Positions 318-15,571 of a stretch of DNA of 64,000 nucleotides are shown here, one piece after another; the first letter of the stretch is position 1; each line of letters begins with the position of its first letter. The position numbers and the translations under genes were made by a program. This DNA is from a virus. Below the pieces are notes generated by a model. The model did no database searches, had not been told where the DNA came from, and saw only the letters and a list, made by a program, of their open reading frames with translations. The stretch covers positions 1 to 64,000 of IMG/VR virus record IMGVR_UViG_3300042505_000752; one strand, given 5' to 3'.

Positions 318-469
318 TGTGGATAAGGTGTGGATAACTCTGTACACAGGCTGTGGGTAACGCTGTGGATAACCATGCGTGCTGTGGATAGTGCTGTGTA
401 TAACCTGTGGATAACTACATGACCAAAGTGTGGATAACTAGCACCAACTGTGGACAAAGGTGGGGATAA
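318..469 (+). other. DnaA-box array, candidate replication origin
   Basis: Five perfect TGTGGATAA boxes (318-326, 329-337, 364-372, 406-414, 429-437; complement TTATCCACA) and about five one-mismatch copies (352-360, 383-391, 395-403, 449-457, 461-469) all point the same way within 152 bases. The copy at 449-457 is TGTGGACAA, the form common in actinobacterial origins. An AT-rich stretch (about 276-306) flanks the array and could be the unwinding site. The array lies in the only gene-free stretch longer than 300 bases in the window (215-633). Known: DnaA binds such 9-mers. Inferred: the phage recruits host DnaA for replication, or titrates it. Confidence 0.75.
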
Positions 470-3379: not shown

Positions 3380-3712
3380 TTAGTCACCGATAGTTTTGGT
3401 AAATTTGCTTTCTTTTACTTTTTTAAGAATTCTTAAGATGTCATCTTCCGAAGCATCGTCAACAATGAAGAGTTCTGCTTCGGATGTTGAACCTAAATTC
3501 ATTTTATAACAGTCTTTGATAAATTCATATGATTGACCAATCAATTGTTGCTTGGTGTTTTTAGTATAGCAAACGGTATCATTTTTTTCATTTAGAAGTA
3601 CGGCAAATGGAATATCCCCATTTTCGTACTCATAGTAAAAAATTGCTGGGTATGTGAACTTTTCTTTTAAATTCTGTCTTGCGCGTTTGGTAACATCTAA
3701 ATCCTGCTTCAT
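3380..3712 (-). CDS. Hypothetical protein, 110 aa
   Basis: Start set at ATG 3710-3712 (MKQDLDVTKRARQNL...), which overlaps the upstream kinase-like gene's stop by one base (TGATG); an earlier ATG 18 bases upstream is also possible. The product looks like an alpha-beta domain (YPAIFYYEYENGDIPFAVLL). Its tight coupling to the kinase-like gene suggests a partner, substrate or regulator of it (inference). No family recognised. Confidence 0.55.
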   Translation of the reverse strand: MKQDLDVTKRARQNLKEKFTYPAIFYYEYENGDIPFAVLLNEKNDTVCYTKNTKQQLIGQSYEFIKDCYKMNLGSTSEAELFIVDDASEDDILRILKKVKESKFTKTIGD

Positions 3713-5754
3713 CACAATCCACCATTCCATGGAACAGAAGTTGTGTCTTTGATTGCTTGAATAAGTGCAGTTGGGTTATCTTCTAAATATTTAAGTCGTG
3801 TCATAGCAAGTGTCCTCATGGCGTTAATATGTGCTTCCTCGGTGGGTGTCAATTCTATACCACGACTTCTTAATCTGTCAAGAGATAAAATTTCATCAAT
3901 TTGAGCACGAAATTTTTTCATGGCAATTTTTTGCCCTTCGGTGAATTGCCTCATTGCCTCTGGGTCGCTTGAAATTCTTGTTCCGAATGTACCCAAATAA
4001 TTAAAAAAGATATTTCCGCCACTAGCAGCGTAATTTGTTGGAGTCATATCTTTGCGATTTTCAGCATGTTCTTCAAATTCGTAACCCTCTACCTCCACAT
4101 CGTGTCCTATTGACATCAATTCTGGGGCACGACCTCCAAACATTAAGCCGTTATCAATTACGCCAAGTCTTTGATTCCCATCTTCGTCATATGCGACCTT
4201 AATATTGTTTTCATGCCTATCAAGGTTGTCAAAAATATAATCAAGTGCTAAAACTTGAGCAACATCCTGAGGACTGACTTTATCTGAGTCAACCCCACCC
4301 ACGCGACCAGAGTCAACCCAATAGGAGGGTTTGCCATCTTCTGTTTGAATCTTTAAAGGCACTGTCCTGTCCCATGATTCAATGCTTCTCATTGCTGTCC
4401 AGCGAACTTTTCTTCCCATTGGGTCGTTCCAATCTGGATTTCGTGGATCAACAACTGGGACTTGTGTTCCAGTGCGAATTTCTTTAGGATCGTTTTTTGA
4501 CGCAAGATCAAGGAGGGCTGATGCTTCCATTCCGATGTTTTCAAGAATTCCGTCGTTAGAACCAAAAGTTGAAGCCTTCAAATACCAAACTTCTCCAGTT
4601 TCTTTGTCTTCTACTTTAAATACAGTCCAAAGACCACCGTACTCATGTCCGCCAACCGAGTCTTTTCCTTGGTTTCCTTTTAGTGTCTTAAATTTGAAGC
4701 GTTTATTTTCAAATGTTGCCTTGGCTGCAATGTCCGAAAATATGACGCTTTCGTCAAAGTTGCCCGTCATAATATCCTCAAATGTGATGTCAATACCTTG
4801 AGGATTTAGTAGACCTAGCCCACTATTTTCATCAATAATAATATTTTCGTCAAAGATTGCGGCTGCAAAAATGTCATCATCAAGGTCAGCGACATCGCCA
4901 CCTCCATAGTGAATATCGGCTACAGCATTGCGATACTTCTCGTCATCAATTGTACTAATGCGGGTTGGACCAATAAGTTCAGCCTTTGCTTCTTCTGCTC
5001 CAGCAAATTGGACCTTAGGCTTGCCATATCGCATAACCTGTACGCCGTCAGGAACATTGCCTGATCCGCCAATTCTGTCAATAAAATCATCGTAGTCTCG
5101 TTTTGAAAGAACCAATATTTCTTTATCCGTCTCAACGACATAATGGTCACCCGAAGTAAATGCGAGTTCTTGTGCTTTTTCGTCAGCACGCTTAAATGCG
5201 CGATTTCTATTGATACGAATAGGGACACGCTGGTCTTGAGGTAAGCCTCGTGCAAGGGCACTAAATGCATCTTCAAAATCTTCTGCTGGCTCTTCTGGGG
5301 CACTGGCATTTGCAATGCTTGCATCAAAACCAAGACGATCTTGTGAAATTTCACTAGATGGCTGTGGAGGGTCAAGAATGTTCTCAACCGATGGAACCCG
5401 AGTTTCAAGACCGGGATATCCAATTTCCTCAAGCGATGACGATCCGAGTGATAGTCCACGCTCTGAAAGTGATGGGTATCCAAGTTTTCCTAATTGAGAA
5501 GGTTTTCCACGCTTCTTAGCATCACCAGCACTGCCATAAGAAGGCTTGTAGGCAATGTCCACACCATCGGAACCGACGACCCTCATTGAGGGACGACTCA
5601 TTGAGGTTATTCCCCGCTGAATATCGTTGCCGATTTCGTCAAGTAAACGACTTCCAACAGGGCGTTCCCACGCTGTACCTTCTTGGACAATGCCGTCGTT
5701 GTCAGCGTCTATGGCATCTGGGTCATAGGGTTCTATGCGTAGTTTTCGTGCCAT
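3712..5754 (-). CDS. Large protein with HipA/PI3-4-kinase-like domain
   Basis: 680 residues. Residues 11-30 (DPDAIDADNDGIVQEGTAWE) form an EF-hand/dockerin-like calcium loop, followed by a low-complexity region. From about 370 to 560 a kinase core is visible: K393 in a strand (VWYLKAS), E410 in a helix (NIGMEASALL), catalytic loop FDNLDRHENN with D512 and N517, and metal-binding IDNG with D534. This order matches HipA and phosphatidylinositol 3/4-kinase-fold enzymes rather than Hanks-type kinases. Substrate unknown. No Shine-Dalgarno site, but a -10 lies just before the start. Possible roles: host modification, or a virion-associated enzyme. Confidence 0.7.
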   Translation of the reverse strand: MARKLRIEPYDPDAIDADNDGIVQEGTAWERPVGSRLLDEIGNDIQRGITSMSRPSMRVVGSDGVDIAYKPSYGSAGDAKKRGKPSQLGKLGYPSLSERGLSLGSSSLEEIGYPGLETRVPSVENILDPPQPSSEISQDRLGFDASIANASAPEEPAEDFEDAFSALARGLPQDQRVPIRINRNRAFKRADEKAQELAFTSGDHYVVETDKEILVLSKRDYDDFIDRIGGSGNVPDGVQVMRYGKPKVQFAGAEEAKAELIGPTRISTIDDEKYRNAVADIHYGGGDVADLDDDIFAAAIFDENIIIDENSGLGLLNPQGIDITFEDIMTGNFDESVIFSDIAAKATFENKRFKFKTLKGNQGKDSVGGHEYGGLWTVFKVEDKETGEVWYLKASTFGSNDGILENIGMEASALLDLASKNDPKEIRTGTQVPVVDPRNPDWNDPMGRKVRWTAMRSIESWDRTVPLKIQTEDGKPSYWVDSGRVGGVDSDKVSPQDVAQVLALDYIFDNLDRHENNIKVAYDEDGNQRLGVIDNGLMFGGRAPELMSIGHDVEVEGYEFEEHAENRKDMTPTNYAASGGNIFFNYLGTFGTRISSDPEAMRQFTEGQKIAMKKFRAQIDEILSLDRLRSRGIELTPTEEAHINAMRTLAMTRLKYLEDNPTALIQAIKDTTSVPWNGGL

Positions 5755-7500: not shown

Positions 7501-8131
7501 AAATTGTTTCCTCATCGTCGTCTATATCTGCTGTTTGCGCTTCAATTTCCGCGAGGGAAGGTAAAGCCCTAACTTCTTCTCCTAGAATTTGCTTAACCGT
7601 ATCAGATGGAAGCACGCCAGATAATCCCATAAGTTCAAGAAGTGCTCGCGCCTCTGTTTCGGGGTTAAATTTGTTAATTTCTGCTGGTCCAGCATTCATG
7701 GTGCCAGCGAGAATAGCCCGTGGCAAACTGTCTATTGTCTCAACGGTGAGATTAACGGTCTGTTGCTCCATGCCAAGGAGTTTTGCTCGCCTATCCATAA
7801 TTGCAAGCACTTGTTGAATTGCTTTCAAATCTGGCTCTACAGTAATTTCAGTACCATCATCTAGCGTGGTTTTACGGTGCTGGGTTAGCGGCCAGATTGC
7901 TTGTTGCAATGCGTCTAGTCGCTCTAATTCCATGCGAAGCACTTCGGGGTATGCCATTAGTGCTTCTTTATTCATTTTTTCCAGTTGACGCTTAATAGCA
8001 GCATTAACTGATTGGGTCGTAATATTGAAACGACGACCAATTTCCTGCGGAGAAACACCTGCTTGACGCATCTTGAAAATACGCAAATCGCGTTCAGCCA
8101 AAAATTCTTTTGTCAAGCCTTTGCTACTCAT
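7493..8131 (-). CDS. HTH protein, possible small terminase subunit
   Basis: 212 residues. Residues 12-45 (AERDLRIFKMRQAGVSPQEIGRRFNIT...) are a helix-turn-helix, followed by a long helical region with LAIMDRRAKLLGM, wording often seen in small terminase subunits, and an acidic tail. The large subunit is 49 kb away (57059-58363), so the TerS role is uncertain; a transcription regulator is the alternative. Start abuts the primase-helicase stop. Confidence 0.5.
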   Translation of the reverse strand: MSSKGLTKEFLAERDLRIFKMRQAGVSPQEIGRRFNITTQSVNAAIKRQLEKMNKEALMAYPEVLRMELERLDALQQAIWPLTQHRKTTLDDGTEITVEPDLKAIQQVLAIMDRRAKLLGMEQQTVNLTVETIDSLPRAILAGTMNAGPAEINKFNPETEARALLELMGLSGVLPSDTVKQILGEEVRALPSLAEIEAQTADIDDDEETIYG

Positions 8132-9843
8132 CAGTCACCTTCTAGGAATTCTAGCACCTCAAACGGAAATACTTTCCCACGCTTCATTTTAGTCGGCCAT
8201 CTACGCTGGTCACGGGCACCTCGGAAGTGCCTGACTTCGTAAACATAACCATCAACTGATGTTGGGTCGGGCTGTAAAGATAAGCCAAATTCAGGCCAGC
8301 GTGACCATACGGCGGAACCAAATGGTCGCAAATCTCGTGATGCCATGGCGCTACCAAGCGGAGCATGATGCTCAAACCAAAAGGCGCACTTAAAGTATTC
8401 ACGAAGAGTGTCAAAGTATTTAGCAATCTCAATTGCTACGGATTCGCTTGTTCTTCCGCCTGGGTCAATAAATGACTTATAGATAGGACCGAGGAATACA
8501 ATGTCAGGCTTAACTATTTCAAGTTTCTCCTCAATCATCATCCTGTCCTGCATTCTCATTAAGTCAATACCGTCAGGCTTGATGAGTAGATGGGCATCAG
8601 GAACATGCTTATTACCGTAATGTAATGTCGCATTATAGATATTTCGTGATGTTCGCCTAATGATTCTTTCGGGGTTTTCCAAGTCAATCATGAGAGTACG
8701 CATCGGTGGAATTGCCTCAAAGGTAAAAGGATGCAGACCAGAGGAAACGCAAAGTGCCACCTGTCGTGCAAGCATCGTTTTTCCCACCCCCTCAGCAGCA
8801 ACAACCATCACTCGCTCGCCACGCTCTAGGAGACCGGGTATAACCCAATCGTATGTGTCCGTCTCCGACTCATTAACGAATTCTCCCCACTCAACTAAGC
8901 GTCCCTCGTTCTTTACTGCCACAACCTGAGGGTCTAATTCAAGAAGAATTCTTTCAGCACGCTGGATTTTTGCTTGATGGGATAAATTATCTTTCTCAAA
9001 TAATTTGTGAAGTTTGTCTAAGACTGGCGCATATGGATCGTGAGCCTCAGGCTCATCTACCATTTCATCAAAATCACGCAAGTCCTCAAGTTTTCCGCCA
9101 CCCTTGAGAAGATCAGTTACATCTTTTACTTTGTCTGCAATTTTAACTGAGACTTGGCACTCTGCTTGGATTAATTTATTTGAAACATCAAGAGCGTGCT
9201 TTTTACCAACTTCATCGTTGTCTGCAACTATAACGATCTTTGCACCAGCAAGCGTCTCGGTGTGGATGTCTAGCCACTTACCTGCACCACCAGGCATTGT
9301 TGTTGCTGGTATGCCCATGTTGATGAGGGTATTAGAGTCTTTTTCTCCCTCAACTACCCAAATGGTTTCGCCATTATCACGAGAGGCACAAATCATTGGC
9401 AGGTTGTATAGGACTTTTTCAATCCCATCAAGATTCATTACCCATTCGCCACTTACTGGGTCTACACGGCGTTGACGGAATGTTTTTTTGCCATCCTCAT
9501 CAACAAATCTTTGTTTTTGAAATAACAATTCACCCAAAGCATCACGATAATCGTAAGTTTCTACAAGGGTTAATCTTTGTTTCTTTTTTGGAATATCTTT
9601 TGGTGGCATTAAATCAGAAACTGTCATTCCAACCGACCCACAAATAGTTTCTACATCACAAGGAATTCCGCGGTGACATGTAACTAGGACGCGACCATCA
9701 GTGCCTTGACCAATTGAAAGGGATGGGTTTTTATCATCATTTCTACACGGGCATTGTGCTGACCAATTTTGACCGTTTTGTTTTACGCCATTAAGTTTTG
9801 ATAGAAATTTCTCTACCTCTGATGAAGTATTTTCCCTTGCCAT
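8131..9843 (-). CDS. Primase-helicase: zinc finger, TOPRIM, RepA-like ATPase
   Basis: 570 residues. A CHC2-type zinc finger is seen at C31, C33, C56 and C62. A TOPRIM domain follows, with E165 (VVEGEKD) and D208-x-D210 (VADNDEVG). A RecA/RepA-like ATPase has Walker A at 349-356 (AAEGVGKT) and hydrophobic strand plus Asp (KPDIVFLGP) as Walker B. Such proteins make primers and unwind DNA at phage forks. AGAGGGA precedes the ATG. It sits with ThyX, WhiB and TerS-like genes in the replication block. Confidence 0.85.
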   Translation of the reverse strand: MARENTSSEVEKFLSKLNGVKQNGQNWSAQCPCRNDDKNPSLSIGQGTDGRVLVTCHRGIPCDVETICGSVGMTVSDLMPPKDIPKKKQRLTLVETYDYRDALGELLFQKQRFVDEDGKKTFRQRRVDPVSGEWVMNLDGIEKVLYNLPMICASRDNGETIWVVEGEKDSNTLINMGIPATTMPGGAGKWLDIHTETLAGAKIVIVADNDEVGKKHALDVSNKLIQAECQVSVKIADKVKDVTDLLKGGGKLEDLRDFDEMVDEPEAHDPYAPVLDKLHKLFEKDNLSHQAKIQRAERILLELDPQVVAVKNEGRLVEWGEFVNESETDTYDWVIPGLLERGERVMVVAAEGVGKTMLARQVALCVSSGLHPFTFEAIPPMRTLMIDLENPERIIRRTSRNIYNATLHYGNKHVPDAHLLIKPDGIDLMRMQDRMMIEEKLEIVKPDIVFLGPIYKSFIDPGGRTSESVAIEIAKYFDTLREYFKCAFWFEHHAPLGSAMASRDLRPFGSAVWSRWPEFGLSLQPDPTSVDGYVYEVRHFRGARDQRRWPTKMKRGKVFPFEVLEFLEGD

Positions 9844-13642: not shown

Positions 13643-15571
13643 GTGGCTCACATTAGCGACCAATTTGTATCAAAGTACGCATCACAACAAGCACCTTGGG
13701 GATTTGGTGGGCTTGGAGAAATTGTTTATCTCCGAACCTACAGTCGTCGTATTGAGGAAATTGATCGTAATGAAATGTGGCATGAAACAATTCAGCGCGT
13801 CATCAATGGTGCCATTGAAATTGGAGTTCCATATACGCAAGAAGAAGCAGAAGTTTTATTTGACCACATGTTCAATCTTCGTTGCTCATTTTCTGGTCGC
13901 GCATTGTGGCAACTAGGAACGCCATTGGTTAAGCAATTCAATGCCGCTTCGCTTAACAATTGTTACTTCGTAAACATTGAATCTGTTAACGATTTTGAAT
14001 TTCTTTTTGATCACTTGATGCTTGGTGGTGGTGTTGGTTTTTCTGTTGAACGAGCAAAGATTCACGAATTGCCAAAAGTTAAAAGCAATGTGAAGATTTC
14101 GCATGAGCGAACAAACGATGCCGACATCATTGTTCCAGACTCGCGTCAAGGATGGAGCAGACTTCTTCATTCCGTATTGAAGTCATACTTTGAAACAGGA
14201 AAATCTTTTACTTATTCAACAATTCTTGTTCGTGAATTTGGCGCTCCACTAAAGAAGTTTGGTGGCACAGCATCAGGACCGGGCGCTCTTATTGATGGCG
14301 TTACCGACATCTGTAAGGTCATGGAAAATCGCGCTGGCAAGAAGTTGCGTTCAGTTGATGTGTTGGATATTTGTAACATCATTGGTCGTATTGTTGTTTC
14401 AGGTTCATCGCGCCGTTCAGCGCAAATTGCAATCGGAGACCCCGACGATGTTTTGTTCCTTCGTGCAAAGAACTGGTCATCAGGAACTGTTCCAGCATGG
14501 CGAGCAAATAGCAACAACAGCATCTATGCGGATGCATGGGATGAAATTCTTCCAGAAGTATGGAAAGGATATGACGGTTCTGGCGAGCCGTATGGTCTCG
14601 TAAATCGCAAGTTGGCTCGTACCGTTGGTCGTTTAGGCGAGAAGCACGCAGACCCATCAATTGAGGGCTACAACCCTTGTGCAGAAATTGCACTTGGCGA
14701 TGGTGAGTCATGTAACCTTGCAACACTTTTCTTGCCCAATGTTGAATCACTTGAGCAGATGAAAGAAATCTCTCGCTTGCTTTACATGTGCCAAAAGCAA
14801 ATTACTCGTCTTGAGTACCCATACGAAAAGACCAATAAGATTGTTGCAAAGAATGCTCGCCTAGGTCAGTCAATCACTGGAATTCTTCAGTGTGATGAAG
14901 AGCACCTTTCGTGGTTGTCTCCAACATATGATTACCTGCGTTCGGTAGATAAGGGATATTCCAAGGAACATGGATTCCCTGAAAGCATTCGCTTAACGAC
15001 TGTTCAACCTTCTGGAACATTGGCACTTCTGCCTGGTAATACGCCTGGTATTCACCCCGCTTATGCCCGTTACTACATTCGCCGTGTTCGTTTCGGTGCA
15101 TCAGATCCACTAGTTGATGCCTGTCGTCGCCGTGGATATGTCGTTAAGTGGGATGTCGGTCTTGATGGACGCGAAGACCACACTCGTTATGTGGTTGAGT
15201 TCCCAGCAGAGTCGCCAGAGAACGCTGTCCTCGCTAAGGACATGACTGCCGTTGAGCAGTTGGAATGGGTAAAGAAGATGCAGACCGAATGGGCGGACAA
15301 CGCCGTATCAGTAACGGTCTATTACCGCAAGGAAGAACTTCCGTCCATTAAAGAATGGCTTGCATCTAACTACACGAATTCAGTGAAGTCAGTTTCATTC
15401 CTTCTCCACAGTGACCACAACTTCCCACTTCCCCCTTATGAGGAAATCACCAAGGATGTTTACGACAAGATGATTGCTAAGGTTGACTATTCATCGCCCT
15501 TGGTTTTGATCGCTTCGGGAACCGAGTTGGACGATACTGACTGCGCTACTGGCGCTTGTCCAATCCGCTGA
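13643..15571 (+). CDS. nrdJ: Adenosylcobalamin-dependent ribonucleotide reductase (class II)
   Basis: 642 residues from a GTG start. The radical site N344-x-C346-x-E348 (NPCAEIA) is clear. C107 (SLNNCYF) and C357 (ESCNL) form the redox pair, and the end carries C634-x4-C639 (DCATGACPIR) for re-reduction. The size and single-chain layout match the monomeric Lactobacillus-type class II enzyme. It makes deoxynucleotides without oxygen or a second subunit, but needs host coenzyme B12. No cobalamin riboswitch is seen in the short upstream region. Its end overlaps the convergent nuclease-like gene by 26 bases. Confidence 0.92.
   Translation: MAHISDQFVSKYASQQAPWGFGGLGEIVYLRTYSRRIEEIDRNEMWHETIQRVINGAIEIGVPYTQEEAEVLFDHMFNLRCSFSGRALWQLGTPLVKQFNAASLNNCYFVNIESVNDFEFLFDHLMLGGGVGFSVERAKIHELPKVKSNVKISHERTNDADIIVPDSRQGWSRLLHSVLKSYFETGKSFTYSTILVREFGAPLKKFGGTASGPGALIDGVTDICKVMENRAGKKLRSVDVLDICNIIGRIVVSGSSRRSAQIAIGDPDDVLFLRAKNWSSGTVPAWRANSNNSIYADAWDEILPEVWKGYDGSGEPYGLVNRKLARTVGRLGEKHADPSIEGYNPCAEIALGDGESCNLATLFLPNVESLEQMKEISRLLYMCQKQITRLEYPYEKTNKIVAKNARLGQSITGILQCDEEHLSWLSPTYDYLRSVDKGYSKEHGFPESIRLTTVQPSGTLALLPGNTPGIHPAYARYYIRRVRFGASDPLVDACRRRGYVVKWDVGLDGREDHTRYVVEFPAESPENAVLAKDMTAVEQLEWVKKMQTEWADNAVSVTVYYRKEELPSIKEWLASNYTNSVKSVSFLLHSDHNFPLPPYEEITKDVYDKMIAKVDYSSPLVLIASGTELDDTDCATGACPIR

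Follow-up and report, generated by a model that had tools for sequence, protein, structure and literature searches.

Why should a phage carry a dense array of DnaA boxes, all facing the same way, and do these boxes start its replication or capture host DnaA for another end? Large lytic phages are usually assumed to start their own replication or only to block that of the host. We analysed a window of DNA, the first 64,000 of the 128,966 bases in a virus record (G000), in which the array under study (array A) lies at 318-469, and compared it with the full record, a relative (G002), other array-bearing viruses and bacterial origins.

The original prediction placed about ten boxes here, five of them perfect and one TTGTCCACA, all pointing the same way, and a pattern search returns exactly that count: ten boxes within one mismatch of TTATCCACA in 152 bp (318-469), 10/10 on the minus strand, five perfect and five with one mismatch. 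Perfect copies of TTATCCACA occupy 318-326 (the box closest to an adjoining AT-rich stretch), 329-337, 364-372, 406-414 and 429-437; the one-mismatch boxes are TTACCCACA (352-360), CTATCCACA (383-391), TTATACACA (395-403), TTGTCCACA (449-457) and TTATCCCCA (461-469), the last of which is perfect in G002. Start-to-start steps of 11, 23, 12, 19, 12, 11, 23, 20 and 12 bases are close to one or two helical turns. Within the window the total of 20 matches with at most one mismatch is ordinary (19.8 expected from shuffles), but their clustering is not: when the full record was shuffled 40 times by a Markov model, the biggest cluster held two boxes, against ten in array A. Across the whole record there are 31 perfect boxes (shuffle mean 1.3, maximum 4, again from 40 Markov shuffles). 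The gene-free gap around the array (about 215-633) had been described as the largest gene-free region, which is true of the window though not of the genome.

Beside the array lies the AT-rich stretch that had also been foreseen, with an AT content of about 80% at 261-300. This weakly paired DNA (245-317, from the stability ranking) sits 3' of the boxes, where an unwinding element would be expected in an oriC, and is a candidate for one; when 60-bp windows are ranked by stability, its weakest one (245-304) falls among the lowest 0.6% of the genome, and the G002 counterpart among the lowest 0.025%. Yet the stretch overlaps a sigma-70-like promoter, TTGCTT-17 bp-TATGAT, found by eye on the minus strand at 245-273 and largely conserved in G002. 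It serves the next minus-strand gene, a small one that begins 104 bases downstream of array A (start part at 1-214, ATG at 214-212 with AAAGGA ahead of it) and crosses the joint of the record. DnaA bound to array A might then act as a transcription switch, controlling this promoter from 104 bp upstream, and it is true that on the strand of the boxes the array is followed by a good promoter (245-273) and then by a gene start (214), both of them kept in G002. We nevertheless consider a switch quite improbable, since most other box clusters in the genome lie at convergent gene ends in promoter-free surroundings, and known DnaA-controlled promoters manage with far fewer boxes than ten. On the other side of the array are a plus-strand GCGGGGCTA motif (489-497, motif scan) and a perfect palindrome, GTAGTGCACTAC (581-592), perhaps a dimeric operator, of which G002 has two copies (104080 and 104106). 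An Rfam search gave zero matches across the window.

The relative G002, a 145-kb record that comes to about 133.7 kb once the 11.3-kb overlap of its ends is discounted, shares about 79-98% DNA identity with the phage in matching blocks. Its array A has 11 same-direction boxes and one reversed box at nearly identical steps, and between both genomes the arrays gain or lose whole 11-22-bp units. Box positions have changed at 8/429 sites (1.9%) against 123/1699 (7.2%) for other intergenic DNA, a figure somewhat inflated by poorly aligned edges (p = 5e-6). From this pattern, selection appears to favour boxes kept in register. Searches by primase or array-flank DNA yielded only G002 and one 16-kb contig as further kin.

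The phage itself is myovirus-like, with a tail sheath, baseplate J, TerL, portal and prohead protease, and encodes a TOPRIM + AAA_25 primase/helicase (8131-9843, minus strand; Pfam and PHROGs matches) and an SSB. DNA polymerases of families A, B and C were sought in it and in G002 and none was detected; the phage seems to need the host polymerase. Among its other genes, 13643-15571 on the plus strand encodes a class II (B12-dependent) ribonucleotide reductase, 3712-5754 a 680-aa protein whose one match, to PI3/PI4-kinase, is below threshold (E 1.2e-4), and L002 8847-9458 a product, unusual in a phage, that matches a proteasome subunit over residues 140-194 only (Pfam E 2.6e-8) and has no PDB sequence relative.

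For window positions 1-25000 there is no near GenBank phage by DNA, and four TerL matches among MAG contigs are spread over unrelated taxa. Among cultured phages, primase and TerL have their closest kin in phages of Arthrobacter and Gordonia (30-43% identity). These matches make an actinobacterial host plausible, and the label actinophage in the original prediction is accordingly plausible rather than proven. Among other actinophages, Arthrobacter phage Seahorse has similar boxes; no arrays are present in Gordonia phage GMA6 or in the 42.6 kb scanned of the 67.6-kb Arthrobacter phage Tank. Since these near cultured phages have none, and more distant TerL relatives in IMG/VR carry 0-3 perfect boxes per record, the arrays are a property of the lineage and not of the whole family.

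Which protein, then, reads the boxes? Host DnaA is the likely binder, because the boxes are near-perfect in consensus, oriC-like in spacing and conserved above their surroundings, and because a phage DnaA was not found. A profile search for DnaA domain IV detected none in the phage or in G002 and none in the 24 other array-bearing records checked (0/25 with G002), so that a phage-encoded DnaA was dropped as a candidate; the lack of dnaA in these records also argues against the arrays being a host oriC carried along with its dnaA. Tandem boxes occur in 32/297 genomes of one bacterial phylum, some with oriC-like clusters of similar spacing (for example 12, 21, 11, 17, 17, 12, 12, 22, 12). Such an iteron-like array could also serve a phage initiator that has escaped recognition and shares the DnaA-box sequence by coincidence; phage initiators are often hard to recognise, many small genes of this phage carry no annotation, and a second motif that stands beside every cluster (see below) suggests another, phage-specific binder. 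We regard this as very improbable, given that the near-perfect DnaA consensus recurs in unrelated phages and in chromosomes and that positions flanking the boxes are only loosely conserved.

Our best guess, held tentatively, is that array A recruits host DnaA at an oriC-like origin. Its observed base is the boxes, their spacing, direction and conservation, the AT-rich flank on the expected side and the fact that no phage DnaA or polymerase A/B/C was found; from these we infer DnaA binding, unwinding and replication start. Host DnaA would bind the minus-strand boxes head-to-tail and form a directional filament, which would point at the AT-rich stretch (245-317) and then open it; a helicase, either host DnaB or the primase/helicase of the phage, would together with the host polymerase start phage DNA synthesis there. 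Array A would thus be an oriC-like half-origin, with the remaining clusters of the genome, described below, binding extra DnaA and holding it on phage DNA. What favours an origin is that the AT-rich stretch, one of the least stable of each genome, lies on the side where opening by DnaA would be expected. The reference for that side is the polarity of the E. coli R1 box relative to the unwinding side. In known origins, DnaA oligomers form head-to-tail with the help of one-direction boxes next to the unwinding element (PMC10316083). Same-direction boxes, steps of 11-23 bp and a 3' side facing an AT-rich stretch are likewise features of oriC in E. coli (left half), B. subtilis and T. maritima, whereas array A differs in lying on a phage, in a genome without dnaA, in having more boxes of near-perfect consensus and in the putative status of its origin. 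It also differs in lacking tandem TAG-type DnaA-trio repeats, of which a reading of the sequence past the last box (318) found none; such trios are not universal, E. coli having TTATT-type motifs instead (PMC10316083). Among phages, the nearest proposal concerns Pseudomonas phage vB_PseuGesM_254, for which DnaA boxes and an AT-rich stretch were put forward as an origin by Ori-Finder; that origin is a prediction only, and the passages on it describe no dense one-direction array (PMC11512268).

Several observations weigh against an origin. Besides the missing trios, GC skew tracks gene direction throughout the genome and marks no origin, the promoter overlap alone could explain the AT-rich stretch, and GMA6 and the scanned part of Tank do without arrays. 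The polarity of the flank, moreover, does not generalise: in 48-58 dereplicated, unrelated viral contigs with directional arrays, the less stable side is the 3' side in 22/48 and 27/58, a comparison for which chromosomal origin arrays, being mixed in direction, provide no positive control. Flank polarity therefore failed as a general proof of origins, directional phage arrays as a class are not oriC-like in flank stability, and the polarity of array A could be luck. Of the two roles first proposed, host-DnaA sites are thus backed by consensus, spacing, conservation and the lack of a phage DnaA; the origin has the local AT-rich side and polarity and the lack of a detected phage polymerase in its favour, and the want of a general polarity in other viral arrays against it.

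Comparison with other phages overturns the claim that few tailed phages carry such a cluster. Pattern scans of IMG/VR for paired or triple boxes each found at least about 120 viral stretches, same-direction triplets alone accounting for at least 120, and among the matches listed in the first two scans about 35 contigs have clusters of at least six boxes at 11-12-base steps, with up to 26 boxes. DNA polymerase A was present in 5/25 records searched, all five of them array-bearing. GenBank entries with similar boxes come from T5-like phages, Stanwilliamsviridae, Audreyjarvisvirus, Seahorse and Berlinvirus. The cultured, T7-like Berlinvirus phages P483 (L334 2442-2567) and A7 (L551 22-147) come closest to array A, with eight boxes, 8/8 in the same direction, at steps that are for the most part 11-12 and 22-26 bp, in DNA free of genes; they differ in being unrelated podoviruses whose arrays lie near the junction of terminase and early genes. 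Their arrays count against an origin as well, for the T7-like group is not known to need DnaA for its replication.

The rest of the genome bears on the other role first proposed, the titration of DnaA. A pattern search of the full record gives 73 boxes with at most one mismatch, distributed over array A, a second array (array B) and six small satellite clusters, eight clusters in all. Array B (record 115399-115737; L003 11399-11737) comprises 21 boxes in mixed directions, mostly at steps of 11-13, with three TTGTAnnnTACAA dyads and, in the stability ranking, no strongly weak stretch at its left. By the ORFs, four of the six satellites occupy gaps where genes converge, in which promoters are not expected. 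G002 retains array B and the satellites too, array B with losses of units and with two of the three TTGTAnnnTACAA dyads lost or changed. A second motif, CGGGGCTA, is found in 27 copies on both strands, that at 489-497 included (1.5 expected, maximum 4), and in 25 copies in G002; nearly all copies fall in the region of small genes that holds the DnaA clusters (mostly record 94-129 kb), and each of the eight clusters has one within about 95 bp. It may be the site of a phage protein acting with DnaA. Within this region, L003 (record 104-124 kb) contains many small genes, several of which have their own promoter-like sequence and a common GTAGTA-type leader ahead of the start codon.

The main rival to an origin is accordingly a DnaA sink, possible though in our judgement unlikely, in which arrays and satellites together would sequester host DnaA, or make it inactive, as the number of phage genomes grows. 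New rounds of host replication would then stop and the expression of DnaA-controlled host genes would change, with the direction and AT-rich flank of array A incidental. A sink would make sense of 31 perfect and 73 one-mismatch-or-better boxes per genome, of satellites placed mostly at convergent gene ends and off promoters, of a dense, mixed-direction array B whose left side has no strongly weak stretch, and of arrays spread over many viral contigs that are unrelated to each other, several of which encode a DNA polymerase. For datA of E. coli, two consensus boxes and four with one misfit are enough to titrate DnaA (PMC5835720). As putative DnaA-binding clusters off the origin, array B and the satellites resemble datA and DARS, array B having many more consensus boxes. 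Against a sink, a single infecting genome adds few boxes relative to the chromosome, so its effect would be late, and the conserved one-direction layout of array A would be unnecessary.

The position of array A near the end of the record invites one more explanation, a DNA-entry or genome-end element in which DnaA and repeats would hold or mark the first-entering DNA, like the T5 injection-stop signal, which has been described with repeats, palindromes and DnaA boxes (PMC13250531). The same combination in gene-free DNA among small early genes is seen here, foremost in array B with its 21 boxes and three TTGTAnnnTACAA dyads. T5-like GenBank records (among them phages Spc35 and VF16) have such boxes in first-step-transfer or terminal-repeat DNA, and similar boxes lie near the record end in Thalassa and Seahorse or beside the terminase/early junction in P483 and A7. 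The T5-like records compared, however, have few boxes, in or near long terminal repeats, while here the assembly is circular and array A strictly directional. The ends of the record are not biological, because they share exactly 127 identical bases followed by a mismatch at base 128, a pattern typical of circular contigs assembled at k = 127; the record thus closes at about 128.77 kb. The terminal location of array A was dropped as evidence for the same reason, an apparent 193-base end repeat being this assembly joint. No terminus can be placed on such a record, and in G002 array A is internal, with the record ends among tail genes; we therefore judge a DNA-entry element improbable.

Array A is thus real and conserved, one of two arrays that form a system in a phage lineage where neither DnaA nor a DNA polymerase is recognisable. 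It probably serves to recruit host DnaA or to capture it. A wider reading, which we offer as speculation and think rather unlikely to hold in full, is that DnaA-capture arrays are widespread and have been gained repeatedly in tailed phages, taking here a two-part form in which a directional oriC-like array is joined by a bidirectional sink and its satellites, and each has as its partner a phage-specific CGGGGCTA site for a second protein that would work with host DnaA. The recurrence of dense DnaA-box arrays in many unrelated phages suggests that phages commonly target or use host DnaA, and the like arrays of the cultured phages P483 and A7 provide a ready model system in which the question is directly testable.
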